DNA of 56,590 nt from Candidatus Poribacteria bacterium (GTDB lineage: Bacteria; Poribacteria; WGA-4E; WGA-3G). Below, piece after piece: positions 7,470 to 39,611 of the stretch. The position numbers and the translations under genes are program-made. Position 1 is the first letter of the stretch, and every line of letters starts with the position of its first letter. The stretch covers positions 1 through 56,590 of the forward strand of contig JAJEBZ010000175.1 of assembly GCA_022822275.1 (NCBI GenBank), read 5' to 3'. The notes beneath the pieces were generated by a model. The model saw only the letters and a list, made by a program, of their open reading frames with translations. It ran no database searches and was not told where the DNA came from.

Positions 7470-7550
7470 GCGGATAATCCTTCCATTGGTTCAATGAGTT
7501 AGGTTCTGTTGGCTGCAAATTATTTGAGTTTTTGTGGGGCGATTTTTCTC

Positions 7551-7640
7551 AAAATGTTTTCATTTGAAAACATTTTTCGTTTTTTTGAAAACATTTTTCG
7601 TTTTTTTGAAAACATTTTTCGTTTTTTTGAAAACATTTTA
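7551..7640. repeat. AT-rich 21-bp tandem repeat (GAAAACATTTTTCGTTTTTTT, ~3.5 copies) preceded by palindrome AAAATGTTTTC-ATTT-GAAAACATTTT
   Basis: Direct reading of 7551-7640. Confidence 0.85.
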
Positions 7641-7937
7641 TAATTTGGAATAAACCCAGTCATAGTAAGGGTTTACAGGCGATTTTTTGTAAATTTTTTG
7701 AAATTAAAAAAAAATATTTTTTGGAAAGTGTAACATTTTGTAATTCTGTTGTTATTGATGTGTGGTGTGTGTCAGTTTTGTAAGAATATTTATGTGTTTT
7801 GTTATATGGTTGTTATGTAATATATATTATAACATGTATATTATTGTGTGTCAAGTCTTTTTTAGTTTAATTTTCTTATATTTTATTATTATGAATGTGT
7901 AAAATTTAGGTCAAGGTGTGTTGTCTAATATTTTCTG

Positions 7938-7985
7938 ACAGAATCTCGGATTTCACAGAGGGCGCGGATTACATGGATAAGACCG
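7938..7985. repeat. Degenerate copy of dispersed repeat GAATC(G/T)CGGAT...CGCGGAT
   Basis: Resembles the core arms of the element at 36673-36867. Confidence 0.4.
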
Positions 7986-8069
7986 CTGCAATGGATCGTA
8001 TCACTGTTGTAGTAAAGCGTCTTTTTGTTTTTCCATAGTTTTTCTCCCACTATTTACCTAACAATTTCG

Positions 8070-9488
8070 TTAGTTTGATACATTTTCAACATCTGGATGT
8101 AATTCCTTTGCTTTTGCAAAGTCTGCTTCTGCTGCTTTTTGTTGTCCAAGTGCTTTTTTTGCTCTACCCCGATTTTTGTATGCTTTAACATATTTAGGGT
8201 TTAATTTGATAGCGGTATTGTAATCTTCTATTGCACCTTCATAGTCATCAAGTTTAGCTTTTGCGTTTCCTCTATTGTAATATGCTTTTGTATATTCAGG
8301 ATTCAGTTTTATAGCCGTATCATAATCTTCTAAGGCACCTTTGGTGTCACCGAGATATCGCCTCAAGGTACCGCGATTGTTGTATGTGTCCGGATCCTCA
8401 GGATTTAATTTGATAGCGTTATCGTAGTCTTCAATAGCTCCTTGAAAATCATCAAGTTTTCGCTTCGCATTTCCCCGATTATAGTATGCGTTTGTCTTTT
8501 CAAAGTCTAGTTTGATAACATTATCATAGTCTTCTATAGCACCTGCAATGTCACCGAGTTCGTCCTTTGCTTCAGCCCGTTTTAAGTAGGCGTGAGCCAA
8601 ATTGGGGTTTAGTTGAAGGGCTTTATCGTAGTATGCTACTGCTTTTTCGTATTTTTCTGCTGCTAAATACATGTTCCCTATATCTGTTTTAGAGTAGGCG
8701 CGTATTTTTGGATGTCTACGCCATTCCGATATAGATTCAACTTGTCCTGAGTTGGCTATTAATGTTTTGAGAGCAGTTAGCGGAATTGCATTAACAAAGG
8801 AAAGTCCGTTTGTGTTGCTATTATTTGTTCCTGTGCCAGATTCAACAACTCCGATAATTTCTCCTTCGTTGTTTAGCACGGGGCCGCCGCTATATCCGTC
8901 AAGTTGTTCTGTGTGAAGTTCCACTTTTATCTGCAGTAGTTTTTCATTATTATGTTCTCCAGAGATTGTACCTGCAACACTTCTGTATTTTTTCTCATCG
9001 TAACCGACAATGTAAGCTTGCTCACCTCTTTGAAGGTTATTGCTGTTTCCAATGGGAAGAGGTACACCTGTTTCAGTAACTTTCAGGAGCACAAGGTCAT
9101 TTTCGTCGTCAAACGCTGTTACACCCTCAATAGTATATTTTGTTGTTCCTTTACTCATGTGGAGATTGCTGGGTTTTTGGTCTTTTTTCTCGTTTAATCG
9201 TTTTGACTTACCTTGAAATAATTGCAAGACTATGTTGTTGATTTTTTTAGAGATACGTTGGGTAATGGGAGCTTTTTGTGCTTCAAGCTGCTTGGCGGTG
9301 ATTGCTTTGACATTGAATCCCGGTACGCCTTCGATCACATGAATGTTCGTTACGATTTTGTCCTGTTCCACGAAAAAACCGGTGCCTACTTGAATCGTCA
9401 GTCCGATAAATTTTGTTTTCAAGCAAACTGTAGATTTCTTGCTATTTTCAGCAATTTGTTGGAGTTGTTCATCTCTTTTTTGTTCCAT
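8070..9488 (-). CDS. Trypsin-like serine protease with C-terminal TPR repeats (no signal peptide)
   Basis: TNIHVIEG / DLVLLK / DGYSGGPVLN triad motifs; TPR units YNRGNAKxxLDDxxGAIEDYDxAIKLNP. Confidence 0.9.
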   Translation of the reverse strand: MEQKRDEQLQQIAENSKKSTVCLKTKFIGLTIQVGTGFFVEQDKIVTNIHVIEGVPGFNVKAITAKQLEAQKAPITQRISKKINNIVLQLFQGKSKRLNEKKDQKPSNLHMSKGTTKYTIEGVTAFDDENDLVLLKVTETGVPLPIGNSNNLQRGEQAYIVGYDEKKYRSVAGTISGEHNNEKLLQIKVELHTEQLDGYSGGPVLNNEGEIIGVVESGTGTNNSNTNGLSFVNAIPLTALKTLIANSGQVESISEWRRHPKIRAYSKTDIGNMYLAAEKYEKAVAYYDKALQLNPNLAHAYLKRAEAKDELGDIAGAIEDYDNVIKLDFEKTNAYYNRGNAKRKLDDFQGAIEDYDNAIKLNPEDPDTYNNRGTLRRYLGDTKGALEDYDTAIKLNPEYTKAYYNRGNAKAKLDDYEGAIEDYNTAIKLNPKYVKAYKNRGRAKKALGQQKAAEADFAKAKELHPDVENVSN

Positions 9489-9534
9489 ATAATAGGGGCT
9501 CTTTTTGCTTGCTTGCGGTGTGAGTCGGGACGGT

Positions 9535-11160
9535 TTATTTTTTGATCTTCGTTTCTAATTCCTTTGCTTTTGCGAAGTCTGCTTCTGCTGCTTTTTGTTG
9601 TCCAAGTGTTTGTTTTGCTCTACCTCGATTTTTGTATGCTTTAACATATTTAGGGTTTAATTTGATAGCCATATCGTAGTCTTCTATGGCATCTTGTGTG
9701 TCGCCAAGTGCATTTTTTGCAATACCCCGATTATAGTATACAACTGCCTCTTCAGGGTTTAGCTGAATAGCATTATCATAATCGTTTATAGCACCTTTGA
9801 CATCGCCGAGAGTTTCTTTCGCATTACCCCGGTTGTTGTATGCGTTGGTATATTCAGGGTTTAACCGTATAGCCATATCATAATTTTCTATAGCACTTTT
9901 CGTGTCGCCAAGTGCATTTTTCGCATTACCCCGACTATAGTATATATCTGCATCTTCAGGGTTTAGTTGGATAGCCATATCGTAGTCTTCCATAGCACCT
10001 TCAAAGTCACCAAGTTCATTCTTCGCGACTCCTCGAATATAGTATATATCTGCATCTTCAGGGTTTAATTGGATAGCCATATCATAATCTTCTATTGCAC
10101 CGTTATAGTTTTCAAGGTCCTCCTTTGTGATTCCACGGTTGTAGTATGCCCTAATATTTTCAGGATCAAGCTGGATAGCGGTATCATAATCGGCAATGGC
10201 TTCTTTCGTGTTCCCGAGTGCTTTTTTTGCATTACCTCGATTATTGTAGGCACTGACATCTTCGGGGTTTAGTCGGATAGCAGTATTGAAGTCCTCTATT
10301 GCACCTTCAAAGTCACCAAGGGCCCCCTTTGCAGTTCCCCGGTTAATATAAACATCAACCAAATCTGGATTGAGTTCAATCGCTTTGTTATAGGCGGCAA
10401 TAGCACCTTTATAGTTTCCTTCGTTGCCTTTTGCATGTCCGCAACTTTCCTGAGTGTATGCGCGTATCCGAGGTCGTTTTTGCCATCTTGCTATAGATTC
10501 CACCTGTGCTGCACCGGTAAGCAATTCCTTGAGTCTGTTTGCCGATATAGCCGTAAATCTGTTTACCGATGATATAGCCTGTCCCAATGCAATGGAACCT
10601 TGGTACAGAATCGCGATGACTTCACCTGTGCTGTTTAGTACAGGACCGCCACTGTAGCCCTGTTCAGCATCTGGCATATTCAACTCTATCCATTTGCCGC
10701 TATTCCGGACAGCATGGACAGTGCCTTCTGCCCTACTTTTTTTCGAGTCCCTCAAAAAAAGTAAGCTGACTGATAGTTTATATAGTTGAAAATCAATCAT
10801 CTTTTTTCTCACAGAATGGCCTATAGCACAGACCGTATCACCAATCTGGACCGTGTTGCTATCGCCAAGCGCGAACGGAGTATCTTCTGCTGCGACCTTG
10901 AGGATAACGAGGTCATTTATATCATCAAAAGCCACCACACCCTCTATGGTATAAACTGTATTTGTGTCAATACACTTCGCGGAGATTGTTCCCGCTCCCG
11001 TAAGCACATGAATGTTGGTTGCGATTTTGTCAGGTGTTATGAAAAACCCGCTGCCCTGTCCCTTCTTGAATGGAATCGTATGTTTCTTTTCCAAGAGAAC
11101 TATAGTGCCTGGGGTTTCTTTAGTGTTTTGTTGAATTTTGTCGTCTTTTTCGTTTTCCAT
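9535..11160 (-). CDS. Trypsin-like serine protease with about nine C-terminal TPRs
   Basis: TNIHVLTG / DLVILK / GYSGGPVLN; tandem 34-aa TPRs. Confidence 0.9.
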   Translation of the reverse strand: MENEKDDKIQQNTKETPGTIVLLEKKHTIPFKKGQGSGFFITPDKIATNIHVLTGAGTISAKCIDTNTVYTIEGVVAFDDINDLVILKVAAEDTPFALGDSNTVQIGDTVCAIGHSVRKKMIDFQLYKLSVSLLFLRDSKKSRAEGTVHAVRNSGKWIELNMPDAEQGYSGGPVLNSTGEVIAILYQGSIALGQAISSVNRFTAISANRLKELLTGAAQVESIARWQKRPRIRAYTQESCGHAKGNEGNYKGAIAAYNKAIELNPDLVDVYINRGTAKGALGDFEGAIEDFNTAIRLNPEDVSAYNNRGNAKKALGNTKEAIADYDTAIQLDPENIRAYYNRGITKEDLENYNGAIEDYDMAIQLNPEDADIYYIRGVAKNELGDFEGAMEDYDMAIQLNPEDADIYYSRGNAKNALGDTKSAIENYDMAIRLNPEYTNAYNNRGNAKETLGDVKGAINDYDNAIQLNPEEAVVYYNRGIAKNALGDTQDAIEDYDMAIKLNPKYVKAYKNRGRAKQTLGQQKAAEADFAKAKELETKIKK

Positions 11161-11200
11161 AAAATGTTTCCTGTCTATCGGCTGTAGTTAGTGCGAAAAC

Positions 11201-12889
11201 TTATTTTTCAAAATCCGGTTCTAATTCCTTTGCTTTTGCGAAGTCTGCTTCTGCTGCTTCATACTGTTCGAGAACTTCTTTTGCCTTGCCTCGATTGTTG
11301 TATGCTTTAGCATATTTTGGATTTAGTTTGATAGACATATCATAATCTTCAATCGCACCTTCATGATTCTCAAGAGCAGCTTTTGCAGCACCCCGGTTGT
11401 AATGGATGGCAGACCGACAAGCGTCACATTCCACTTCTGATTGAATAGCTTCATCGCTGTTTAATATGACCTCTTGATATAGGTTTTGTGCTGCTTCCGT
11501 ATTTCCCTGTTTACTTTTCAGTTTTGCTAACTGAGATTTTACCTGTCCGATATGATTATGGACGCGCAACCCTCCAAATTTTAAATTAATAGCCTCAGTG
11601 AAGTCATTTATCGCATCCTGATATAGTTTTTGTGCTGCTTTCAAGTTTCTATGTTGTGATTCAAACTGACCGAAAATATATTTTGCTCTTCCTCGACTGT
11701 GGTAGGATTTTGCACGCTTCGGTTTTTGATTGATAACTTCAGAAAGATCGGCTATTGCTTGTTGATATGAGTTTTGTACTGTATACAAATACTCTTGCTT
11801 TTTTTCAATGGGTTCCTGATTGATAACCTCAGTAAATTCATCAATAATCGCTTGGTATAAATTCAATACATCTGATATTTCTCCTTTTGCGATTCTCATT
11901 TTGGCAAAGTGGAACCTAACCTTTGCTTGAATTTCAAACCAAGTGCCTTTTCCAACTAATTTCCTTATGAGTCGTAGAAAACCTGAATGTAAAAAAAGTC
12001 TGATGAATCGCAGCTGCCATGAAAGGAATATGCCAAAACGTGTAAGGCTGAACCGTTCTCGATGGAGTTTATGAGCTGAGAGTGTGTTGAGGAGGTATTC
12101 GTCTCGTCTCTCTAAGTAGTACATCACTGAAGCTCTGTTTTTGTAAACATCAGCCAAATCTGGATTGAGGCTAATGGCATCATCGTAGAGTGCGATTGCC
12201 TCCTTAATGTCTCCGTGTTCATGGCTAAGAAACGCATCATAAGATTTTACATAAGCTTGAATGCGTGATCGCTTTTGCCATGCATCAAACGATTCCACTT
12301 CATTCGTTTCGCTCAACAAGTTTTTTAGAAGATTTGAGGCAACGTTTGTACCCTTAATGGATTCACCTTCATTAACTGGTCGCCCTCCAGAACTGATAAC
12401 AGCGATGATTTCGCCTTTCGTATTCAGCACTGGGCTGCCACTATACCCCTGTCCATCGGAAATATTGAACTCTACGATGATATGTTTTCCACTGTTTCTG
12501 ATGCTGTCAACAGTGCCATCTACAAGGTCTATTTTGTTTTTACGACACCCTATGAGGCAGACTTGTTCACCTTTTCGAACTTTCTTACTATTGCCGAGGG
12601 GAAACGGTGTGCCTTCCTCTGGGACCTTTAGAACAACGAGGTCGTTTATGTCATCAAAGGCAATGATACTTTCAATATTATAGACTGTTTCTGTTTTGAT
12701 GCAAGTCGCAGTGATTTTTTCAGCACCCGCGAGGACATGAACATTGGTGACGATTTTGTCAGGTTCAATGAAAAATCCATTGCCTAAAGCATTAGATTTA
12801 TCTTCCCCAAATTGCTTTTTTATGAGAACTGTTGTGCCAGCGATTTCTTCTTTGTTTTGCTGGGATTGATTGCCTCTTTCTTGTTCCAT
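11201..12889 (-). CDS. Trypsin-like serine protease with TPRs and hydrophobic insertion
   Basis: TNVHVLAG / DLVVLK / GYSGSPVLN; insertion RFSLTRFGIFLSWQLRFIRLFLHSGFLRLIRKLVG; TPRs. Confidence 0.88.
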   Translation of the reverse strand: MEQERGNQSQQNKEEIAGTTVLIKKQFGEDKSNALGNGFFIEPDKIVTNVHVLAGAEKITATCIKTETVYNIESIIAFDDINDLVVLKVPEEGTPFPLGNSKKVRKGEQVCLIGCRKNKIDLVDGTVDSIRNSGKHIIVEFNISDGQGYSGSPVLNTKGEIIAVISSGGRPVNEGESIKGTNVASNLLKNLLSETNEVESFDAWQKRSRIQAYVKSYDAFLSHEHGDIKEAIALYDDAISLNPDLADVYKNRASVMYYLERRDEYLLNTLSAHKLHRERFSLTRFGIFLSWQLRFIRLFLHSGFLRLIRKLVGKGTWFEIQAKVRFHFAKMRIAKGEISDVLNLYQAIIDEFTEVINQEPIEKKQEYLYTVQNSYQQAIADLSEVINQKPKRAKSYHSRGRAKYIFGQFESQHRNLKAAQKLYQDAINDFTEAINLKFGGLRVHNHIGQVKSQLAKLKSKQGNTEAAQNLYQEVILNSDEAIQSEVECDACRSAIHYNRGAAKAALENHEGAIEDYDMSIKLNPKYAKAYNNRGKAKEVLEQYEAAEADFAKAKELEPDFEK

Positions 12890-12916
12890 TGGTGTGTTCT
12901 CCTATTTCTTGTCTAT

Positions 12917-14422
12917 TCAATCCCAAGACTTATTTTCAACATCTGGGTCTATTTCCTTTGCTTTTGCAAAGTCAACTTCTGCTGCTTCATGTTGTCCGAG
13001 TGCTTGTTTTGAAAGTCCGCGATCTTGATAGTATAGTGCTTTCTTCTTTTTAGGTTTTAGACGGATGCATTCATTGAAGTCTTCAATTGCAGCGTTGTGG
13101 TCGCCAAGGCCCGCTTTTGCAGCACCGCGCGTATGATAAAAGGCCGCCCGAACGCTTGATAGTTTCGGATTGAACTTCAAGGCAGCATCAACATCGTCGA
13201 TTGCAAATTTATAGCAATATTCCGCTTCTTCCATATTACCATGTTTGCTTTCAAATTGCCCCATCAAGTATCTCACCCATCCACGCCTGTTATAGGTAAT
13301 GCCTGTCTCCTCTTTTATATCAATTGCTTCAGAATATAGGTTGATTGCGATTTGAAAATATCGTCTGACATCTTTGTGTTTGCCTTGTTCTGTTGCAGAT
13401 TTAGCTTTACGAATATGTGAATTGGCATTACCAGACAACCAAAATCTTCTTCCCAATAAAGATGCAATTTGAAAGAGAAATCTCATACCGTATAGTTTTA
13501 GTATATCCAATCTGTACGAAATAGACTCCCAGAAATTAGAAAAATTATATGAGGCAAAATTGAATTGATGGAAAATTATGTGATCGGTTATTGCCTCTGC
13601 CAAATAACCGAATTCAAACTTGGCATCCGCACGTCTTGTATAAGTTTCCTGTTTATCAGGGGCAAGTTCAATTGCAATATCATAATGTGCAATTGCTTCT
13701 TTTAGATCTCCGTCCTTCTGAAATTTATCTGCTGCATCAATTTCAGCTAAATAACGCACATGTGGAAGTTCTTGCCATTCTTCAAAAGACACGGATTCTG
13801 TTCCCTCCTGTAGCAATTCTTTTAATCTGTTTGAGGGTATTGCGTAACTACAAACGATATTACCAGAATCATCAATCCCAACGGATGATTCTATTCCTAT
13901 TACCTCTCCTTTAGTATTTATGACAGGACTACCACTGCTGCCTCCAGGGGCCTTTGTTGACAAACGTATCAGATCGCCACTTGATCTTTTTGATATGCTT
14001 TCTATCGTTCCGTGTTCAATCTTTGCTATTGAATTAGGATAACCAACAGTACAGATTTTATCGTCATTTTGAATCGTGTCACTATCACCAAGTGTAAGTG
14101 GATTTCCTTCAGAAGAAATCTTTAGAATAATTAGGTCCTTTTTCTCATCATAAGCTGCAACACCCTCAATTTGGGGCGATTTTTCTGTGCCAGAAAGTTT
14201 TATATTCACAGATGTTGCGCCAACGATGACGTGGTAGTTTGTCACTATAAGATGTTTATCAATAAAAAACCCGCTACCGTTGTTAGTCTCAATTTTGACT
14301 AAATCAAGCTTAGGACGCGATGCAAGACAAGGCGTTTTTCTTTCTGCATTCAAACAGACGATGGACTTCTTTAAGGCGTTTTCAGCAATTTGTTGCAAAG
14401 TGGTATTTTTTTCTTGTTCCAT
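12917..14422 (-). CDS. Trypsin-like serine protease with TPRs and hydrophobic insertion
   Basis: TNYHVIVG / DLIILK / GGSSGSPVIN; TPRs. Start set at MEQEKNTTLQQ (SD GAGAGGAAA upstream) rather than ORF start 14440. Confidence 0.88.
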   Translation of the reverse strand: MEQEKNTTLQQIAENALKKSIVCLNAERKTPCLASRPKLDLVKIETNNGSGFFIDKHLIVTNYHVIVGATSVNIKLSGTEKSPQIEGVAAYDEKKDLIILKISSEGNPLTLGDSDTIQNDDKICTVGYPNSIAKIEHGTIESISKRSSGDLIRLSTKAPGGSSGSPVINTKGEVIGIESSVGIDDSGNIVCSYAIPSNRLKELLQEGTESVSFEEWQELPHVRYLAEIDAADKFQKDGDLKEAIAHYDIAIELAPDKQETYTRRADAKFEFGYLAEAITDHIIFHQFNFASYNFSNFWESISYRLDILKLYGMRFLFQIASLLGRRFWLSGNANSHIRKAKSATEQGKHKDVRRYFQIAINLYSEAIDIKEETGITYNRRGWVRYLMGQFESKHGNMEEAEYCYKFAIDDVDAALKFNPKLSSVRAAFYHTRGAAKAGLGDHNAAIEDFNECIRLKPKKKKALYYQDRGLSKQALGQHEAAEVDFAKAKEIDPDVENKSWD

Positions 14423-14487
14423 AAAAGTGTTTCCTCTCAACTATACCCATTATACATTAAATCACTCAGGATTCATACCAAAAAGAT

Positions 14488-14764: not shown

Positions 14765-14844
14765 TAGTTTTCAGTTATTAGTTCTCGGTTTTCAGTTGAA
14801 AGAGACACTTTGTCATTTTAAGCACAATCATGAGGAAAAATCGT

Positions 14845-17800
14845 ATGTTTGAAGAGGTATCACCACAATTTACCTTTGCAGAAAAGGAGAAACAGACGCT
14901 TGCGTTCTGGCGCGATCATGACATTTTTCAGAAGAGTATGGAGATGTACAAAGACGCGCCGTCCTTTGTGTTCCTTGAGGGACCGCCCTTTGCAAATGCC
15001 CCGCCCGGTGTGCATCACGTCCTTGCACGCATTATGAAGGATGCTGTCTGCCGTTATAAGACGATGACAGGACACTATGTTCACAGAAAAGCGGGATGGG
15101 ACACACACGGACTGCCCGTTGAGTATCAGGTGGAAAAGCAGCTCAATATCAGAAATAAAGCGGAATTAGAGGCTTACGGCGTTCAGAACTTCATTGAGAA
15201 GTGTAAGGAAAATGTCTTTCAATATGAGCAGGATTGGCGGGAGATGACGGAACGTATCGGGTTCTGGGTGAACTTGGATGAGGCGTATATTACGTTGTCA
15301 AATGACTATATTGAGAGTGTGTGGTGGGTGCTGCGGCAAGCGTGGGATAAGAAACTATTGTATCAGGGACATAAGGTGCAGCCGTATTGTTATCGGTGTG
15401 GCACAACTTTGGCAAGCCATGAGGTTGCGCTCGGTTATCAAGAGGTTGAGGATCCGTCAATCTTTGTCCGATTTCCACTGAAAAATAGAGAGAATACCTA
15501 TCTGCTTGTGTGGACGACGACACCTTGGACGTTGCCATCTAACGTTGCTGTGGCTGTCGGTGCAGATTATGATTACGTTGCGGTTGAGGATAACGGAAAA
15601 AACCTCGTTCTTGCGAAGGCGTGTATACCGAGTTTGTTCGGTGATGAACCCCCGAAAATCGTTGAAACTTACAAGGGTAACGATCTCTGTGATTGGGAAT
15701 ATGAACCGCTTTTTGACAGTGGGGGACATGAAGAGAGATCGCATTACATTGTCACTGATGATTTTGTGACAACGACAGAGGGCAGCGGTTTAGTGCATAT
15801 TGCTCCTGCCTTCGGGCAAGATGACTACGATATTGGGCAGAAGTACAATCTACCTTTCGTGCAGTTGGTCGGTAGCGATGGCAAGTTTGTGCCAGAGGTA
15901 AATGACGAGTGGGCAGGTGAATATGTGAAAGATGCTGACCCGCAAATCATTGCGAACTTGGACAAACGTGGGTTGCTGTTCAAGGCTGCCGAGTATACAC
16001 ACCAATATCCATTCTGTTGGCGATGTGATAACCCTTTGCTATACTATGCACGTGAATCGTGGTTTATCCGTACCACTGCTATCCGCGACCAGATGCTTCA
16101 GCACAATCAGGAAATCAACTGGTACCCTGAGCATATCAAGGATGGTCGGTTCGGGAATTGGTTAGAGAATAACATTGACTGGGGGTTGAGTCGTGAACGT
16201 TATTGGGGAACGCCGCTGCCTGTCTGGATATGTGAAGATTGTGGACATCAGCATTGTGTTGGCAGTATTGCCGAATTGAAGGAACTCGGTAACAATGTGC
16301 CAGAAGATATTGAACTCCACCGTCCTTATGTGGATGCGGTTGTGCTGACCTGTGAGAAATGCAGCGGAACAATGCATCGTATCCAAGATGTGATTGACTG
16401 TTGGTTCGATTCAGGTTGTGCCCACACTGCACAGTGGCACTACCCGTTTGAAAACAAAGAACTATTTGAACAGGCTTATCCCCCAGATTTCATCTCGGAA
16501 GCAATTGACCAGACGCGCGGGTGGTTCTATAGTCTGTTAGCAATCGGCACGCTTCTCTACGACAAACCTGCATACAAGAACTGCTTATGCCTTGAGTTGA
16601 TTCTCGCCTCTGATGGACAGAAGATGAGCAAGAGTCGGGGAAACACTGTGGACCCGTGGACGATTTTGGACAAGCAGGGGGCAGACGCAATGCGGTGGTA
16701 TATGTTCACGGCATCGCCTCCATGGGCACAGCGGACATTCAAGATTGAAGGTGTTGATGAAGCGTTGAAGAAGTTTATGGGAACGTTTCACAATGTCTAC
16801 AGTTTCTTTGTGATGTATGCTAATTTGGAACAGGTTGATGTTTTGGAAGATGCTCCCCCAGTTGCAGAACGTGCTACCATAGATAGATGGATTTTGTCTC
16901 GTTTGCATACTTTGATTAACAAGGTGCGCGATGATATGGAGAACTACCAACTTACGAATGCGCCGCGCGCGATTGAGGCATTTGTAGATGACCTGAGCAA
17001 CTGGTATGTGCGCCGTTCTCGTGATCGTTTCTGGGGGGCGGAAGCAGGACAGGACAAACAGGCTGCGTATGCTACGTTGTATGAGGTGCTTGTGACTGTA
17101 GCGAAACTTGTTGCGCCATTTATCCCGTTTTTAGCAGATGAACTCTACCGCAACTTAGTCGGTTCACTTGACTCCGATGCTCCGCTTAGTGTGCACCTTG
17201 TCCAGTATCCCGTTGCAGATGCTGCGGTGATAGATGCCGAATTAGAAAACGATATGGCTTTTGCACGCGAGATCATCAGTATGGGACATGCCGCGCGGAA
17301 TCGTTCTGGTATTAAGACCCGGCAACCACTTGCTGACATCACGGTTGGTGGGTTATCGGATGCAGAAAAAGCGACTATTCATCGTCTATCGTCCTTTGTG
17401 CATGATGAGTTGAATGTCAAGGAAATTGTCTTTACAGCGGAATTGGACACTTATGCCCAGGTCACACTCAAACCGAACTTCAAGGTGTTGGGACCGAAAT
17501 ACGGCAAAGGTGTGCAGGCAATCGCAAAAGCACTTGCTACCGCTGATGCTATGCAGCTGAAGGCAGAATTGGAAGCGAATGGGAGCTTAGAAATTGAAGC
17601 ATCGGGTGAGACCTACACGGTTGAGTCCTCAGAAATTGATGTGCGGACAGAAAATCGAGAAGGCTTTTTTGTTGAGGTGGCCTCCAGTAAATTTGTGGCA
17701 CTGTCAACGGAACTGACGCACGAGTTAGTGCTTGAAGGGATGGCACGTGAACTTGTCAACAAAATCCAGAACATGCGGAAAGAGGCTGACTTTAACGTGT

Positions 17801-17988
17801 CTGATCGGATAAAACTCAGTGTGAACACATCCTCCGCGCTTGTGGCGGAAGCGTTTGACGTGCATCGGGATTATGTTCTGGCAGAGACGTTGACGACTGA
17901 GGTGGTTGAATCGCCGGGTGAAAAGGCGTTTCGTGTTGAGCAAAAGTTAAATGGGGAACTGGCGACGTTGAGTGTGGAGCAGGTTTAG
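14845..17988 (+). CDS. ileS: Isoleucyl-tRNA synthetase
   Basis: GPPFANAPPGVHHVLARIMKD (HIGH region), KMSKSRGN, WTTTPWTLPSN editing-domain motif. Start moved from 14830 to 14845 (GAGGAAAA SD). Confidence 0.95.
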   Translation: MFEEVSPQFTFAEKEKQTLAFWRDHDIFQKSMEMYKDAPSFVFLEGPPFANAPPGVHHVLARIMKDAVCRYKTMTGHYVHRKAGWDTHGLPVEYQVEKQLNIRNKAELEAYGVQNFIEKCKENVFQYEQDWREMTERIGFWVNLDEAYITLSNDYIESVWWVLRQAWDKKLLYQGHKVQPYCYRCGTTLASHEVALGYQEVEDPSIFVRFPLKNRENTYLLVWTTTPWTLPSNVAVAVGADYDYVAVEDNGKNLVLAKACIPSLFGDEPPKIVETYKGNDLCDWEYEPLFDSGGHEERSHYIVTDDFVTTTEGSGLVHIAPAFGQDDYDIGQKYNLPFVQLVGSDGKFVPEVNDEWAGEYVKDADPQIIANLDKRGLLFKAAEYTHQYPFCWRCDNPLLYYARESWFIRTTAIRDQMLQHNQEINWYPEHIKDGRFGNWLENNIDWGLSRERYWGTPLPVWICEDCGHQHCVGSIAELKELGNNVPEDIELHRPYVDAVVLTCEKCSGTMHRIQDVIDCWFDSGCAHTAQWHYPFENKELFEQAYPPDFISEAIDQTRGWFYSLLAIGTLLYDKPAYKNCLCLELILASDGQKMSKSRGNTVDPWTILDKQGADAMRWYMFTASPPWAQRTFKIEGVDEALKKFMGTFHNVYSFFVMYANLEQVDVLEDAPPVAERATIDRWILSRLHTLINKVRDDMENYQLTNAPRAIEAFVDDLSNWYVRRSRDRFWGAEAGQDKQAAYATLYEVLVTVAKLVAPFIPFLADELYRNLVGSLDSDAPLSVHLVQYPVADAAVIDAELENDMAFAREIISMGHAARNRSGIKTRQPLADITVGGLSDAEKATIHRLSSFVHDELNVKEIVFTAELDTYAQVTLKPNFKVLGPKYGKGVQAIAKALATADAMQLKAELEANGSLEIEASGETYTVESSEIDVRTENREGFFVEVASSKFVALSTELTHELVLEGMARELVNKIQNMRKEADFNVSDRIKLSVNTSSALVAEAFDVHRDYVLAETLTTEVVESPGEKAFRVEQKLNGELATLSVEQV

Positions 17989-18149: not shown

Positions 18150-18677
18150 TCATTCTCGTGTAGAGTCCCTCCACACGTTAGGACGGTAATCCTCCCATTG
18201 ACTAAGGCTAAAGTGGTGTATATGTCTCAGTGTAACAAAGCGCGTTACCCCCTGAACAGTCACACGCATATATTCAGAAGCACCCCCTTTACCTTCTGCT
18301 TCTGCAAATAATCCCTTGCATGTATTATCTTGATCAATGTCGTCGGCAACCCACTCATACAAATCACCTTGAATGGTACCCTTTTTCCGTACTTCCGGTT
18401 TTGCCTGGACAGCATTTGCCACTTGTACGACGATATTGTAATACACTCGTAGAAATATATTCTTATGAGGTGACTGATTGGCTTCAACGTTGCAAGATGC
18501 ACTCGCCGTATAGACACCGAGATCCTTGTTTCTGTATTTCATTGCGTCAGCGAAACCGCTAACAAGGACATAATCGTGAGTCCCTGCCAATTCGTTTTCA
18601 TGAGCAAAGGTCCCACTGAAAAGTGTGACTAACAATAAAATGCTTAATATCATAATGATCTGTTGTCGTTTTAACAT
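18150..18677 (-). CDS. Secreted protein of unknown function (partner of the 18692 gene)
   Basis: 175 aa, signal peptide ILSILLLVTLFSGTFA; 14 bp downstream of anchored gene. Confidence 0.6.
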   Translation of the reverse strand: MLKRQQIIMILSILLLVTLFSGTFAHENELAGTHDYVLVSGFADAMKYRNKDLGVYTASASCNVEANQSPHKNIFLRVYYNIVVQVANAVQAKPEVRKKGTIQGDLYEWVADDIDQDNTCKGLFAEAEGKGGASEYMRVTVQGVTRFVTLRHIHHFSLSQWEDYRPNVWRDSTRE

Positions 18678-18691
18678 ATATGGATCCTTTA

Positions 18692-19414
18692 TTAAAATAA
18701 ATCAAGGTATTGAAATGGATCGATACCTGAGGTTTCATAGTCTAAGACTTTAAGATTAGGTGGAGGGTTTAACAAGTCAACACCAATCGGAGCTCTTCCG
18801 ACTTGGTGGATTATAGACGGTAACACGGTTCCATCTGGTAACACACGGTCTGCAACGGTGATGTAAACTGTATCAAAGTAACTTGGGTAAACTTTTCCAT
18901 TTTTTTGGTCGTATTTGGCACCTTTAAAGTTTCTTATTCCTTCAGACCAGAGTTTGACTAATACTCTATCCAATATTTCAGAACTCCTCTGTTCGTCGAC
19001 TGGTAAATCGTAGTAGTCGGTTTGTAACCAGACAGCACAGAAAGGAAAATCTTCAGGCACCTCTGGAAATGGACCATACCCAAATGGGGATGCTTTAGGC
19101 ACCTCTGGAACCGGTATCACTCTTCCGTTTACGGTGACTGTTGTTATTACTTCACCGTCAATAGTAGAAATGTCTATGTTATCATCAATAGGAACATTTT
19201 TAGGTTTTACAATAGCATTACTTATCTGCTCTTCTTTATTTTCAGATGTTGCTATATTAACTTCCAATTTGCGGGCAGCTTCAGCAGTTTCGGCTGAGCT
19301 GCGTTTGTAGGGGGCAAGCTGGTGCTGGTACCAAAAGTAGCATCCGATACCGAAGAGAATCACTAAGGCATACCCGCCAAGTATCCATTTATTGAAAAAG
19401 ACTTCGCGAAACAT
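18692..19414 (-). CDS. Membrane-anchored 'SPYGFGPYPEVP' family protein, paralog A
   Basis: N-terminal TM; ASPFGYGPFPEVPEDF motif; C-terminal GIDPFQYLDLF; strong SD AAGGAGGTTCACA. Confidence 0.7.
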   Translation of the reverse strand: MFREVFFNKWILGGYALVILFGIGCYFWYQHQLAPYKRSSAETAEAARKLEVNIATSENKEEQISNAIVKPKNVPIDDNIDISTIDGEVITTVTVNGRVIPVPEVPKASPFGYGPFPEVPEDFPFCAVWLQTDYYDLPVDEQRSSEILDRVLVKLWSEGIRNFKGAKYDQKNGKVYPSYFDTVYITVADRVLPDGTVLPSIIHQVGRAPIGVDLLNPPPNLKVLDYETSGIDPFQYLDLF

Positions 19415-19442
19415 TGTGAACCTCCTTTTTTGATTGCTATGA
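19269..19442. repeat. 174-bp 5' cassette, copy A (head codons + SD + upstream)
   Basis: Aligns without gaps to 21352-21525; one mismatch seen by eye. Confidence 0.85.
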
Positions 19443-19623
19443 GATGATTATACAAAATGTAAAAAAAAATGCAAGTAAAAAATAAAAATTTAGAATTTTG
19501 TGGAATTTGGGCAAGATTTCGCGTAATTTCCTGTTTCCAGTTGAGATTGCAAACCCTTTGAAATAAAGAAAGGCAGATGTCCATACGGATATCTGCCAGT
19601 TCGTTTTGAAAATATGACCAACT

Positions 19624-20751
19624 TTAAGAATCACATAAGAGGGTATAGGTTTGTTCATACTCTGTCATATCTGTTCCGCGCGTAATAACGGCAGTTATGA
19701 CATAGGTGCCTATTTCATTATAGGTATAACGCATTGTTCCTAAGTTGGTAGTGCCCCCTTCGCTGGAGCCTACCTTTATGCCACGTCCTGTCTCACCCTG
19801 TCTCTTTACATACCAGTCAATCCAGTAATAATGATCATCTGTGATAACATTTAGTTCGAATTCGGAACCAGGAGACGCACCGAGGGCAACTGTATCGGTT
19901 GGATATATGCCGAGGAGTTGAACTGTGACGGTGCTTGTGATTTCATATTCAGACATATCTGACCAACGCATAATGACAGCAGTTATAAGATAATCTCCAG
20001 CATTCATGCTACCGCTTGGGGGCGTGTAAGTGAATTCTGCTACCGTTTTTGTGCCATCTCCATCTTTACTTCCGATAGAGTCCCCTCTGCCGCTTGTCTG
20101 CCAGGGTCCCCGCGCAAATAGTTGTACATGATAATATGGTTCACCCGTGTCAACTTGTAGTCCATAAGCATATCCTGGAGAGGGTGTTTTCTTTGGATCA
20201 GTTGGGGAAATTCCTTGGTTATTATTGGCATGTCCGGCATGTTCGTTTAACTGATCTGTCCTACAAGTGTAATATGGAGTACCACAAGGACAGTCTACTT
20301 TGTGATCTACTCCTTCTTGCCAACATCCCTTACAAAGAGGTTCGTTTGGATCTGGGGATGTATCTGTATCGGTTGTCAGATCTGTATACAACACTTCAAT
20401 AGTAGCCAATCTGTCTTGTGATATCCAAGATGTACGGAATTTTCTACAAGAATCATTTACTGACACAGTCCCATCTACAAACTCATCAACCCAAGATCCC
20501 CAAGTTCCCCGTGGGTTTCGTTTTTCCACTTTATCTCTATCTGCAAGTTTAACCCTTATAGTATACCTATACCATTGTATATCTCCTTCAGCAGTTACAC
20601 TTGCTTCTCCCTCAAAAACTGTATGGAAAGGAATCTTGCTATCTTTTTTACTAAAACTTGAATCAGCATCAACGTTGCTATTCACATTGCTAATACCGAT
20701 TATACCGTTAAGTATGAGAATTGTTAAACATAAAAAAAGTGAATTTCGCAT
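19624..20751 (-). CDS. Secreted protein with Cys-rich segment and two Ig/PKD-like repeats
   Basis: Signal peptide; CKGCW...CPCGTPYYTC; repeats YYHVQLF...YLITAVIMRWSDMSEYE and YYWIDWY...YVITAVITRGTDMTEYE. Confidence 0.6.
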   Translation of the reverse strand: MRNSLFLCLTILILNGIIGISNVNSNVDADSSFSKKDSKIPFHTVFEGEASVTAEGDIQWYRYTIRVKLADRDKVEKRNPRGTWGSWVDEFVDGTVSVNDSCRKFRTSWISQDRLATIEVLYTDLTTDTDTSPDPNEPLCKGCWQEGVDHKVDCPCGTPYYTCRTDQLNEHAGHANNNQGISPTDPKKTPSPGYAYGLQVDTGEPYYHVQLFARGPWQTSGRGDSIGSKDGDGTKTVAEFTYTPPSGSMNAGDYLITAVIMRWSDMSEYEITSTVTVQLLGIYPTDTVALGASPGSEFELNVITDDHYYWIDWYVKRQGETGRGIKVGSSEGGTTNLGTMRYTYNEIGTYVITAVITRGTDMTEYEQTYTLLCDS

Positions 20752-20762
20752 AATACGATCTC

Positions 20763-21530
20763 CTACCGTTTTAACCCGAGATATGAATACGGGTCAATTC
20801 CAACATTTTCGTCTGCTGATAAAACAGTTATATGATTGGGAATATTGCCATTTAGGATTTCTTCCTTTGTAATATCTACTCCAACCTTTACTCCGAAAGC
20901 CTCGGTGCTACTTATGATACGTTCCCGTGTTCCGTCAGGATTCTCAGTATAGCCATAGGTAACGTAGACTGTGTTTGGGTACTTCAAATAAACTCTATCA
21001 ATGTTAGGATCCATTTCTGCTGCAGGCAGGACACGCGTACCCTCATTCCACATTTTGATATAGATACGATATATCAATTCACCATCTCTGAGTATGTCTG
21101 GAATATTTGAGAATTCTATTAGTTTCTGACGCTTTTCTTCAGACCATGTCCAGGGAGGCATCCTATCCGCTGGAAAATCGGGAGGTATCTCTGGATAAGG
21201 TCCGAATCCGTAGGGGGACACAAGAACGGATTCAGTATTTCTGTCTAATGATGTTTTCTTTGGATTATCTTCTGTTGCAGTACCATCCACAGATATGTTG
21301 GTTTCATCTTGTGGCGTGTTGTTGGTGTCTGCCTTTTGGGCTGCTTCCCACTTGCGGGCAGCTTCAGCAGTTTCGGCTGAGCTGCGTTTGTAGGGTGCAA
21401 GCTGGTGCTGGTACCAAAAGTAGCATCCGATACCGAAGAGAATCACTAAGGCATACCCGCCAAGTATCCATTTATTGAAAAAGACTTCGCGAAACATTGT
21501 GAACCTCCTTTTTTGATTGCTATGAAACAA
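20763..21530 (-). CDS. Membrane-anchored 'SPYGFGPYPEVP' family protein, paralog B
   Basis: Same N-terminal head as 18692 gene; VSPYGFGPYPEIPPDF; C-terminal GIDPYSYLGLKR. Confidence 0.7.
   Translation of the reverse strand: MFHSNQKRRFTMFREVFFNKWILGGYALVILFGIGCYFWYQHQLAPYKRSSAETAEAARKWEAAQKADTNNTPQDETNISVDGTATEDNPKKTSLDRNTESVLVSPYGFGPYPEIPPDFPADRMPPWTWSEEKRQKLIEFSNIPDILRDGELIYRIYIKMWNEGTRVLPAAEMDPNIDRVYLKYPNTVYVTYGYTENPDGTRERIISSTEAFGVKVGVDITKEEILNGNIPNHITVLSADENVGIDPYSYLGLKR
21352..21525. repeat. 174-bp 5' cassette, copy B
   Basis: Near identical to 19269-19442. Confidence 0.85.
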
Positions 21531-21579
21531 TTATACAAAATGCAAAAAGTAGAAAATATGAGAATTTGCTGAATTCGCG

Positions 21580-23334
21580 CTATTTTTTTGGTTGAGGCCT
21601 ATATTTTAACACACCGTCTGCATCGGTGAAGCGGACATACAGTGCCCATGTCCAGCTGTTCTGCTCAACACTGCACAAGACTTCGTTCCATCCTGCTTTC
21701 AGTTGGCACGGAATGGTATCAGCATCGGGTGTTATGCGGCGATAAGTCCGTTTTTTGTGGATTTCTGTTCCGTTTAGCCATACATTCACCGTCTCATCGC
21801 TGCCAAGTAGTAGGACAGTGTCCATCGCTTTTGGTGCGTAGACGTAGGTTACTGCGTATCCAACGACAGCAGACTGCATGCCGAAGTTTGTGCGAAAATT
21901 CAGCAGGCCGTTTGTTGTGGTTTCTGCTTCACGCCATTGGGTTGTTTTGGCATCATTGTCTTTGTAGGTTGCGTTCAGATTGAGTGTGTTTTCTGTGGAA
22001 ATGGAGGAAACAATTGTGTTTGTGTCTGTTTTGGGAATCGGACCTAAAACCATGTAACGTTTAATGAAGGGAGAAGCATGCAGGGCTTGATAGGAATCAA
22101 TTCCGACTTTGTAGCCTGTTGCGAGATTTGATTTGCCGATGTTCTTTAGGGCAATCTCATTATCGCCTTTGTTCAAGGGGACCGTGCCAAATTTTACCAA
22201 CGTTCCTGCTACATGTTCAGGATGGTAGCAGTCGTACGGTGTGCCGACCTTTGTGTCGTTGACGGTGAGTTCTGCATGTCCATATTCTGGTCCGCGTGTT
22301 AAGATAGCACTGATTTCGTATAGGTTTCTATATGGTACTTTAATCGTTTGATGGACTGATGCACCTGTCTTTTTTGCGTCTAATGTAATATGCCCTCCGT
22401 CAATATCAATACCTGCATTACGATAACTTTCTAATCTATATTCATCCGATTTCTGTTTGACTAATAGTGCTATTGCCGATTGTGTATTTTCTGGGGGAAT
22501 TTTCCACGCTTTTTCATACCAGAATTGCGGGAGTGTGTAAATATCGCGTGCTTCGTTTGTTAGGTAGAGATTATATCCCTCAAAGCAGATTGCTTCTCCT
22601 TGGAAGTTGTGTCGTAATGTCCAAGGCTTGTTCTTGATCATTTTTGCTACATCGCCAGTAGCGTTATGGTAGACCCACAGTGCATTGTAGGTGCAAACGG
22701 CAAGCCGTTTCCCATCTGTTGATATACCCGCACCTGTAACCAGTTTTGCATCTGCAAACTCACCGACACGTTGTAGAACCTGTTTCGTGTCTGCTTTCAA
22801 TTCTGGGAATCGGTAAAGCACAGCACCCGCTTGCTCTTTTGACACGATGTGCGGGATGCCATTAGCAATAAACAATCCTTCCGCATCTATATTGTTGTCC
22901 GGATACCGGTAGGGATACTTTGCGATGACTTCAACCTCTGTTTTCGTATGTGGGTTCGGTTCTTTGATGACAACCACATTTAGGTCAATCCGCATTCTGC
23001 TATTGTTGCCGATGTCTCCGATCCAGATTTGTCCTTTGTTGTCAATTGCGAGTGCTTCCCAGTCGCGGTTGCGTGTGCCTTGTACCTTGATTTCTTGGAT
23101 GAGTTCCCCATTCCGTTTTGTTGCGTAAAGTACTGCGGGGTTTCCTGAGTCGTTCAACGTCCAATAGACACCATCAAACTGTTTGCTTGTGACTATGCCG
23201 GAACTTTCTCGGATAGCGGGATGTGTATATCTGCCTGCGGGTTGCCACGGTGGTGTGCCAAATTGTGTTGGTTCTTCAGCGATACCGAATGTTGTTGTAA
23301 GGATAAAGATAAGTGTGTATAGTAGCGATCTCAT
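21580..23334 (-). CDS. Secreted beta-propeller-like protein with C-terminal beta-sandwich-like region
   Basis: Signal peptide; RESSGIVTSKQFDGVYWTLNDSG, DWEALAIDNKGQIWIGDIGNN propeller-type repeats; C-terminal ETVNVWLNGTEI...LKAGWNEVLCSVEQ. Confidence 0.55.
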   Translation of the reverse strand: MRSLLYTLIFILTTTFGIAEEPTQFGTPPWQPAGRYTHPAIRESSGIVTSKQFDGVYWTLNDSGNPAVLYATKRNGELIQEIKVQGTRNRDWEALAIDNKGQIWIGDIGNNSRMRIDLNVVVIKEPNPHTKTEVEVIAKYPYRYPDNNIDAEGLFIANGIPHIVSKEQAGAVLYRFPELKADTKQVLQRVGEFADAKLVTGAGISTDGKRLAVCTYNALWVYHNATGDVAKMIKNKPWTLRHNFQGEAICFEGYNLYLTNEARDIYTLPQFWYEKAWKIPPENTQSAIALLVKQKSDEYRLESYRNAGIDIDGGHITLDAKKTGASVHQTIKVPYRNLYEISAILTRGPEYGHAELTVNDTKVGTPYDCYHPEHVAGTLVKFGTVPLNKGDNEIALKNIGKSNLATGYKVGIDSYQALHASPFIKRYMVLGPIPKTDTNTIVSSISTENTLNLNATYKDNDAKTTQWREAETTTNGLLNFRTNFGMQSAVVGYAVTYVYAPKAMDTVLLLGSDETVNVWLNGTEIHKKRTYRRITPDADTIPCQLKAGWNEVLCSVEQNSWTWALYVRFTDADGVLKYRPQPKK

Positions 23335-31644: not shown

Positions 31645-32355
31645 TTACTTGCGTTTCAAATTGCCCCATGTCACAGCAATTTTACCTTGCGGTTCAACTG
31701 GAGTTGCGGTGCCGCCTGGTGTTACGACGAATATGTTATCGTACTGGGCGTGTTCAGCACCGCTCATGCGGAACCCAATTTTTCCGGATGAGAAAGCACC
31801 TTGTGAATCAGTCCATTCACTCACGAAAGATAATTCGTCAATACTGCCGCCTACGGGTCCAATGTATGCTTTAAAATTGGAGCCTTTCCGCACCTCAAAC
31901 TTTGCACGGTACCAAACATTTTCTTTCCGATCAACACCATCCACAAATGCTCCAGGCTCTGCAGCCCAACCGCCGTTGATTCTTCGATGCCATCGGATAT
32001 GCTGTGGTGTATGCCCTGAACCATCGGTTGAAACTTGGTGCATATAAATATTGTTTGCATCCGTACCGTGGAAGACAAATCCAGTCAAACCGTTTTCCAC
32101 TGCTTTAAAATCAGCATAATAATCGTATTCTTCTGGGAAATCATCAACGCTAAATCCGATGTCACCACCTGGAACGGAAAGCACTTTTTGTCCGAGGACG
32201 TCATGGCCATCGGCATTGTCTTCAATCGTCCAGGTCCCTTGCGGTGCCCATTTTGATTCGTCAATGTTCCCACTCTCAAAATCATCATGAAATAGAAGTT
32301 CAGCAGATACAGTACCAATGCACAAAATCATTGCTAAACAGAATAAATATCGCAT
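31645..32355 (-). CDS. Secreted LamG/DUF1080-like beta-sandwich protein, paralog 1
   Basis: Signal peptide; LLFHDDFESGNIDESKWAPQGTWTIEDN; C-terminal GKIAVTWGNLKRK. Confidence 0.65.
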   Translation of the reverse strand: MRYLFCLAMILCIGTVSAELLFHDDFESGNIDESKWAPQGTWTIEDNADGHDVLGQKVLSVPGGDIGFSVDDFPEEYDYYADFKAVENGLTGFVFHGTDANNIYMHQVSTDGSGHTPQHIRWHRRINGGWAAEPGAFVDGVDRKENVWYRAKFEVRKGSNFKAYIGPVGGSIDELSFVSEWTDSQGAFSSGKIGFRMSGAEHAQYDNIFVVTPGGTATPVEPQGKIAVTWGNLKRK

Positions 32356-32558
32356 TTATATCATCTCCTTGTTATGAAATATAAAACCAAACGGTTCTGC
32401 TATAAATATAGGTTTTACCAATTTAGATAACTATTACCTAACGGTTAATTCAGCTGCTATTTGATTCCAATTATACCATAAATCCTTTTTGTTAGATAAT
32501 CAAAAGTGGGGGGTGTGGCAAAAGGTTAAGAGCAATATATTTGCACGCTTTTGATGGT

Positions 32559-33281
32559 CTATTTTTGTTTCAAATTCCCCCATGTCACTGCAATTTTGCC
32601 TTTGGGTTCAACGGGGAAGATGTCAAAATCGGGTGTAGCAACAACAACGTTATCGTACTGTGCGCGTTCTCCGGCACGGTTGCCGCCACTTTTTCGAAAT
32701 CCGATTTTTCCCTTCTCAAATGCATTTTGACTGTCGGTCCATTCACTCACAAGAGTAAGGTCATTGTTTTCTGCTCCGATGTCACCGACATAAGCCTTAA
32801 ATTCATAATTTTTACGCACCTCAAATTTTATACGGTACCAAACATCCTGGTCAAGTTTAACACCACCAGCGAATGCACCGGGTTCTGCTCCCCATGTACC
32901 GCTGACTCTTCGGTGCCATCTGATGTGTTGCGGTGTATGATTAGAATCGCCAGTGGAAACTTGATGCATATAAATATTGTTGCCATCCTGTCCGTGGAAG
33001 ACAAATCCTGTTAAGCCATTTTGCATCGCTTTAAAATCGGCGTAATAATCAAATTCTTCGGGAAATGTGTCAACACTAAGCCCAACGGCGCCGCCCCATA
33101 CATCAAGGACTTTTTTGCCGAGGATATCGTGCCCGTCATCATTATTAGCAATTTCCCAACCCCCAGTCGGTGCCCATTTTGAATTATCGATTTCACCGCC
33201 CTCAAAATCATCCTCAAACAGAATATCAGATGAAACGGTGCTGACACACAAAATCAGTATCAAATAGATTACATATCGCAT
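32559..33281 (-). CDS. Secreted LamG/DUF1080-like beta-sandwich protein, paralog 2
   Basis: Strongly similar to 31645-32355 gene along its length. Confidence 0.65.
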   Translation of the reverse strand: MRYVIYLILILCVSTVSSDILFEDDFEGGEIDNSKWAPTGGWEIANNDDGHDILGKKVLDVWGGAVGLSVDTFPEEFDYYADFKAMQNGLTGFVFHGQDGNNIYMHQVSTGDSNHTPQHIRWHRRVSGTWGAEPGAFAGGVKLDQDVWYRIKFEVRKNYEFKAYVGDIGAENNDLTLVSEWTDSQNAFEKGKIGFRKSGGNRAGERAQYDNVVVATPDFDIFPVEPKGKIAVTWGNLKQK

Positions 33282-38855: not shown

Positions 38856-39611
38856 ATGTTTGAAAATATTGTGTTCAAGCGTGTGTTCTATATAACCTGC
38901 ATTATATGTATTTTTGTAGGGGCAGGAATGATCTGGTGGTCCCATTACGACCTAAAACATTTCTTAGAAGAGAGAAAACCTATAAGATACACTGAAACCG
39001 AAGAGAAACAACAAATTCCGCGTAATAAGATACAGGAAGCAGTTGAGAGATCAGATAGTTCTGAACATGCTGACGTGCTTGTTGAGCAACAAGCAACAGA
39101 ACTTTCCGACCTATCTTCCAACAATGAATTGGCTGCAACGGAAGATAAACCGCCCAAGGCAAAAAGCATGAGGAGAAAATTTGATCCTGTATCCCCTTAC
39201 GGCTTCGGACCTTATCCCGAGGTTCCTGAAGAATACATGAAGACTGTAGGAACTCCTTCATGGATGGAAACGAAACTATTTGGTTTTCCGCCTGCCAGTC
39301 GAGAACAAGAATTAATTTCTCGTGTTATGCTCAAAACGTGGAAAGAAGGACACACCACAGTTGAGGGAGCAATTCTAAATCCTGAGGGCCGCATCCTCAT
39401 AAATTACAAAAACCGTGCTTACGTCCGTTATGGAACACGAGTAACTACAGATGGAAGAACTATCCGTTACATCACAAGGTGGACATCCGGCAGCCTAAAA
39501 TCCCCATCAACAGAGCAACTCCTTGATGGCTATATTCCATCAGGTGTAGAATTAATTGATTTAGATCAAGAAGATCCTACTATTGACCCCTATGAGTTCT
39601 TGGGGTTATAA
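38856..39611 (+). CDS. Membrane-anchored 'SPYGFGPYPEVP' family protein, paralog C
   Basis: VSPYGFGPYPEVPEEY; ELISRVMLKTWKEG; C-terminal TIDPYEFLGL; unrelated N-terminal anchor. Confidence 0.65.
   Translation: MFENIVFKRVFYITCIICIFVGAGMIWWSHYDLKHFLEERKPIRYTETEEKQQIPRNKIQEAVERSDSSEHADVLVEQQATELSDLSSNNELAATEDKPPKAKSMRRKFDPVSPYGFGPYPEVPEEYMKTVGTPSWMETKLFGFPPASREQELISRVMLKTWKEGHTTVEGAILNPEGRILINYKNRAYVRYGTRVTTDGRTIRYITRWTSGSLKSPSTEQLLDGYIPSGVELIDLDQEDPTIDPYEFLGL

Follow-up and report, generated by a model that had tools for sequence, protein, structure and literature searches.

Described two-gene systems and the cassettes of the window

Polymorphic toxin systems such as Rhs and CDI carry exchangeable units of a C-terminal toxin and its immunity protein. 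These effector/immunity genes are exchanged as a unit by recombination in a conserved region, and orphan immunity genes are also known (PMC10539506). The VARTIG modules of Thermococcales are lineage-restricted and hypervariable, with Ig-like domains and recombination within gene 1. This gene encodes a large multi-Ig protein that recombines between strains, and a membrane protein is linked to particular Ig subfamilies (PMC8416519). Lipase-specific foldases (LipH/Lif) consist of a membrane helix, a variable linker and a periplasmic domain and are specific for the secreted client encoded beside them (PMC13381987).

The window, a stretch of 56,590 nucleotides from a Candidatus Poribacteria bacterium, carries two cassettes, each with an anchored gene followed by a gene for a secreted partner. 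A preliminary description had placed four ORFs on the minus strand in this alternating order, with gaps of 11 and 14 bp within the pairs, and the sequence and ORF positions bear this out (Table 1). The start of anchored gene 1, previously given as TTG 21530, was corrected to ATG 21497, as the former adds residues missing from the paralog; AAAGGAGG lies just upstream of the new start. The ORF of secreted partner 1, 11 bp behind anchored gene 1, has a Shine–Dalgarno sequence overlapped by a stop codon (GGTAGGAG). The inverted repeat between the cassettes is weak and scores no better than shuffles. Elsewhere in the window, positions 5130-14440 (minus strand) hold a tandem array of paralogs that combine serine-protease-like with TPR regions. 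The one scanned is Trypsin_2 plus TPR, and the first gene of the array presumably ends in a formylglycine-enzyme-like domain. Two tandem genes at 31645-33281, also on the minus strand, encode secreted paralogs of 236 and 240 aa with a DDFESGxIDxSKW motif.

Table 1. Positions of the cassette genes and associated features in the window
Feature	Position	Strand	Description
Anchored gene 1	20763..21497	-	244 aa; membrane helix, acidic linker, apparently periplasmic SPYGFGPYPEIP...IDPYSYLGL domain
Secreted partner 1	19624..20751	-	375 aa; N-terminal hydrophobic segment, variable N-domain, apparent Ig-like modules
Anchored gene 2	18692..19414	-	240 aa; same family as anchored gene 1, other tail
Secreted partner 2	18150..18677	-	175 aa; ORF 14 bp behind anchored gene 2
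Third anchored paralog	38856..39611	+	Solo, no secreted neighbour
Conserved head block, copy 1	21344..21548	-	TATAAT box, 5′UTR, Shine–Dalgarno sequence, membrane helix
Conserved head block, copy 2	19261..19465	-	96.6% DNA identity to copy 1
Terminator-like inverted repeat between cassettes	19572..19597	-	Listed on the + strand by the scan; T-rich tract after the repeat on the minus strand
Slot flank A, phytase-like/NHL-type secreted protein gene	21580..23334	-	Weak Pfam matches
Slot flank B, presumed isoleucyl-tRNA synthetase gene (ileS)	14830..17988	+	Convergent

As in polymorphic toxins, gene 1 has a conserved upstream part, its variable downstream part appears to be exchanged as a unit with the adjacent gene, and orphans of one side persist. 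Tails and partners co-vary and heads do not (L126 and L128 are an example), as expected of such an exchange unit, though this does not imply toxicity. Unlike in those systems, gene 1 encodes a small anchored protein in place of a large delivered toxin, its partner is secreted, the folds are unrelated to theirs, and neither a toxin domain nor delivery machinery was found. The cassette proteins are mostly 80-400 aa long and carry a signal peptide or membrane helix only, with none of the delivery or secretion domains of a large toxin. With VARTIG the cassettes share lineage restriction, hypervariability, Ig-like domains, recombination in gene 1 and linkage to a membrane protein. In contrast to the multi-Ig upstream gene of VARTIG, gene 1 is small (~240 aa), with a predicted alpha/beta, non-Ig fold; the heads are homogenised within the genome, and it is gene 2 that encodes the putative beta-sandwich. 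The helix, variable linker, periplasmic domain and adjacent client gene of LipH/Lif recur here. However, the predicted fold and the client differ and, whereas a foldase is present as a single copy per client, the cassette family is large and hypervariable and solos are common. No foldase domain homology was found by Pfam (90 members) or by the PDB fold search, and instead of lipase or protease clients the partners are predicted beta-sandwich proteins, with no enzyme family among those tested.

Histories of heads, tails and partners

The cassette had been described as duplicated. This stands for the 205-bp front block, which comprises the promoter box, ribosome site and membrane helix and is 97% identical in DNA, but not for the remainder of the anchored genes or for the secreted genes. 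The block ends at about codon 51, where similarity is lost abruptly, and the DNA on both of its sides is unalignable between the two cassettes. Secreted partners 1 and 2, compared by BLASTP (E = 0.55), are not duplicates. The same pattern recurs within genomes. Of 17 pairs whose heads are 90% identical or more, 14 have unalignable tails. Between genomes, heads reach this identity in six pairs; one has unalignable tails and the other five align through the tail like orthologs. At the same chromosomal slot in the window's genome and in its neighbour, genome G007, the two heads are 95-97% identical within a genome and 86-90% between genomes. By these alignments the heads undergo concerted evolution, being homogenised within each genome.

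Tails and partners have a different history. Across 62 cassettes, the Spearman correlation is 0.23 for tail and partner (maximum of 300 permutations 0.15) and -0.04 for head and partner. In each of the 23 between-genome pairs whose partners are clearly related, tail similarity reaches the 97th percentile or higher, while the heads range from the 3rd to the 99th. Between L126 and L128 the tails are 93%, the partners 91% and the heads 45% identical. The tail of anchored gene 2 is 70% identical to that of L085, and the L085 partner is homologous. Since partner similarity tracks the tail and not the head, the inherited or exchanged unit is the tail plus the partner. Linked genes co-vary even without binding, and the head of the same gene is the internal control for this.

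The slot lies between the phytase-like gene and a gene which we take to be ileS, and holds zero, one or two cassettes. Among genus relatives, five sites are empty (spacers of about 0.1-0.6 kb) and seven hold one cassette. Two are present in the window and in G007 only; the second anchored gene of G007 contains two stop codons. Partner types differ across the slot sites, and several assemblies break exactly at the slot. Fragments of the slot flanks lie near cassettes at G005:C3:8191-8432 and G017:C27:17090-17436 (phytase-like in both, with an ileS fragment also in G005), which suggests duplicated or broken flanks. No Rfam family or tRNA was detected in scans of the window, and tRNA-linked insertion of the cassettes was therefore rejected.

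Omega values of 0.05-0.3 indicate purifying selection on the tails; the partners are under weaker constraint (0.11-0.44 in the usable comparisons), and ileS has values of about 0.04-0.05. Positive selection on the partners is unsupported, as the sole omega above 1 (L105/L109) comes from a truncated partner with a misaligned end. Solo and paired tails are equally constrained (median omega 0.20 and 0.19), and the tail of the third anchored paralog is under purifying selection with its solo relative L084 (omega 0.15). Solos are scattered among paired genes on the tail tree, which requires at least 17 changes of state, and separate clades of solo and paired anchored genes were rejected. This constraint and scatter suggest that partners have been repeatedly lost or gained while the remaining anchored gene was kept. 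The anchored genes of L136 and L137 (genomes G014 and G009) are 99.8% identical in DNA, but the partner ORF is intact at only one of the two loci. At the other, a fragment with 98% identity to it survives, which looks like a recent loss of the partner.

Linkage, the partner superfamily and the anchored family

For the linkage test, a partner was called where an ATG-started, signal-peptide-like ORF, as defined by hydrophobicity rules, began within 60 bp downstream. Such an ORF follows 63 of the 137 family members with enough downstream sequence, compared with 16 of 362 control genes from the same loci (Fisher p = 1e-26; some of the sampled genomes are fragmented MAGs). Gaps of 9-20 bp occur behind 44 of the 137 anchored genes and four of the 362 controls. 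A Shine–Dalgarno sequence precedes 59 of the 63 partners, against 35% in shuffles. Of the remaining 74 anchored genes, 18 have partner-like matches downstream, in the form of remnants, ORFs with other start codons, or displaced partners. The reverse test is the stronger of the two. A whole-genome search with a partner-only profile, covering only part of the partner diversity, retrieved 50 partner genes, 46 of which lie directly behind an anchored gene; four are lone, and at least one of these is cut by a contig end. The cassette is thus almost certainly real. Paralogs do not consistently lack a secreted neighbour, yet about 40% of the anchored genes are solo, with no detectable partner.

By BLAST the 85 partners fall into 38 clusters, and BLASTP gave no signal of relatedness. 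Profile tests overturned this view, and the loose resemblance noted earlier between the two secreted partners, to which BLAST is blind, is real at the profile level. The motif GxYxVxAxV is present in 44 of the 85 partners, as opposed to about 1 in shuffles. A profile built from the motif-bearing partners only matched 14 of the 41 motif-less partners at E < 0.01 and none of 820 shuffles. Secreted partner 2 is among those matched (E 0.0055, with no shuffled sequence reaching 0.01), and secreted partner 1 gave E 0.027 in the hold-out. The profiles and structural model point to a single hyperdiverse superfamily of beta-sandwich proteins. The model is that of L181, a representative partner from outside the window, predicted as an all-beta sandwich with a mean pLDDT of 91; the closest structures in the PDB are mainly Ig-like sandwiches, and none of these matches is significant. 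Some partners add fn3 (Pfam PF00041) or Ig-like modules, and L101 and L109 have modules in common and unrelated N-domains. The modules of secreted partner 1 are 49% identical to those of the G007 slot partner and gave zero matches in Pfam; their putative Ig-like nature rests on internal and inter-partner repeats. No toxin domain was found in the window proteins (Pfam, NCBIfam, PADLOC, PHROGs) or in nine other partners (Pfam). None of 63 partners has a lipobox or outer-membrane anchor. A cleavage-like site is present in 39 of the 63, and so some partners could stay membrane-tethered.

With a profile of the three anchored paralogs in the window, 13-14 copies were detected in the window's genome, and 42 of 60 relatives gave matches. 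By a wider profile, 63 of the 86 poribacterial genomes carry the family, and the copy number reaches 28 in a genome. It is confined to three families of one order among the poribacterial genomes searched, with no match to the wider profile in the other poribacterial families searched. In a collection of 85,462 species, the best 80 of 170 loci are all from Candidatus Poribacteria. As stated in the preliminary description, no characterised family accounts for either protein: neither is represented in Pfam, NCBIfam, PHROGs or PADLOC, and for the anchored protein 90 members were also searched against Pfam. The proposal of an undescribed two-gene system is upheld by this absence, by recurrent pairing across one order of Poribacteria and by reciprocal linkage.

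In the AF2 model of anchored gene 1 (mean pLDDT 86), a long helix at the N-terminus leads into a disordered linker (residues 61-81) and then an alpha/beta domain predicted with confidence (mostly above 92); the fold has no match at E<=0.001 among PDB and viral models. The supposed cell-surface location was not retained: the topology indicates what appears to be an inner-membrane protein with a domain oriented towards the periplasm. SPxGFGPYPEVP and GIDPYxFL are nearly invariant across the anchored tails, and the most variable regions are the linker and residues ~181-210. The motifs reported as shared are those of the family, although their wording varies, with SPFGYGPFPEVPEDF and IDPFQYLDL in the second anchored protein. 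The near-invariance of SPxGFGPYPEVP suggests a shared binding site. Profile matches to ATP synthase b subunits in the PDB (helix and linker, E >= 0.006) were rejected as composition. The SpoIIIAH/T2SSM matches of a few members in Pfam were weak and were likewise rejected. A TonB-like anatomy of helix, linker and C-terminal domain was considered, without a fold match. At L161 (3034-5200) and L077 (3446-4898), anchored genes stand in series and the second, in the partner position, belongs to a distinct short subfamily (SPYGLGPYPPLP); at L161 a partner-like gene follows it. At L082 and L083 (G035) and L065 (G020), as many as five anchored genes are arrayed in tandem; their upstream DNA and heads are repeated (92-97%) and most tails are unalignable. 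The preliminary description had missed the most informative points: recombination of the conserved head, the shared inheritance of tail and partner, and the single superfamily formed by the partners.

Possible roles of the pair

The preferred reading, with a probability of roughly 40%, is a hypervariable two-component cassette in which the tail recognises its own partner in an effector/immunity-like role. The head of gene 1 would provide the promoter box, ribosome site and membrane helix of an inner-membrane protein, whose periplasmic tail would present a variable face on a conserved scaffold. Gene 2 would encode a secreted Ig-like beta-sandwich protein, bound in the periplasm by its cognate tail. 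Tail and partner probably are a cognate binding pair. New specificities could arise by exchange of tail-plus-partner units under a head homogenised within the genome, and by gain or loss of whole cassettes at chromosomal slots. The secreted protein may target other cells or the periplasm of its own producer, with the anchored protein binding and neutralising it; an effector/immunity-like role of this kind is put forward tentatively. If the anchored protein does neutralise its partner, anchored genes could persist as orphan protectors, and secreted genes would rarely stand alone. The co-inheritance of tail and partner, the independence of the head and the one-sided orphans fit a cognate pair whose anchor is useful alone and whose secreted protein is seldom tolerated or useful without it, a pattern seen in effector and immunity genes.

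Several observations argue against effector/immunity. No partner tested has a toxin domain, the partners have no known route of delivery to other cells, and their Ig-like and fn3 modules would serve adhesion or recognition just as well. A near-invariant SPxGFGPYPEVP in all tails is odd for a pure specificity protein, and recent partner divergence is purifying, not diversifying (omega 0.11-0.44). Co-inheritance is expected of any linked, vertically inherited operon, though the heads of the same genes lack this pattern. Close behind stands a dedicated foldase or export adaptor, a rather doubtful alternative, in which the anchored protein would act in the periplasm to fold, hold or pass on the secreted protein cognate to it, for display or release as a variable adhesin or recognition protein. 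The membrane helix, non-conserved linker, periplasmic domain and position beside the client gene match the anatomy of lipase-specific foldases (PMC13381987). The invariant motif could dock to common machinery, partners without an anchor are rare, and partners bear Ig-like and fn3 modules. Yet the partnerless anchored genes, about 40%, are constrained like paired ones, and no foldase family was matched by Pfam (90 members). The lipase-specific foldase is also largely helical, in contrast to the predicted alpha/beta domain of the anchored protein.

In third place, and improbable, is a VARTIG-like surface system for self/non-self or host recognition, in which the tail would tether a variable beta-sandwich ligand or receptor that recognises kin, sponge host or phage, with no toxicity. 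The strain-specific repertoire, hypervariability, Ig-like modules, confinement to one order of Poribacteria and the VARTIG precedent itself (PMC8416519) agree with this, but none of the 63 partners has an outer-membrane anchor or lipobox, and the anchored protein appears to reside in the inner membrane. Highly unlikely, and disfavoured, is the absence of any functional pairing, whereby a proliferating leader/promoter sequence would have carried assorted secreted genes by chance, with linkage reflecting shared transcription only. Repeated and recombining heads, the many solos and partners that seem unrelated by BLAST would follow, but the partners form what appears to be one superfamily, lie almost always behind the anchored family, and track tails rather than heads.

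Joint inheritance of tail and partner under a freely exchanged front end of the anchor is what a recognition or effector/immunity pair would lead one to expect. A non-Ig anchored receptor or neutraliser of new fold, with a hyperdiverse secreted beta-sandwich ligand recombining under a shared expression head, may represent a new class of bacterial hypervariable recognition. If true, the cognate-pair logic would be an independent example, in unrelated proteins, of that of polymorphic toxins and VARTIG. Were the pair cognate, a conserved expression head would stand over exchangeable, co-inherited specificity units, and two protein families that lack database models would acquire a role open to testing. 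The Poribacteria, prominent sponge symbionts, would then possess a large and so far unstudied range of specific protein pairs, which plausibly decides the coexistence of strains or hosts.
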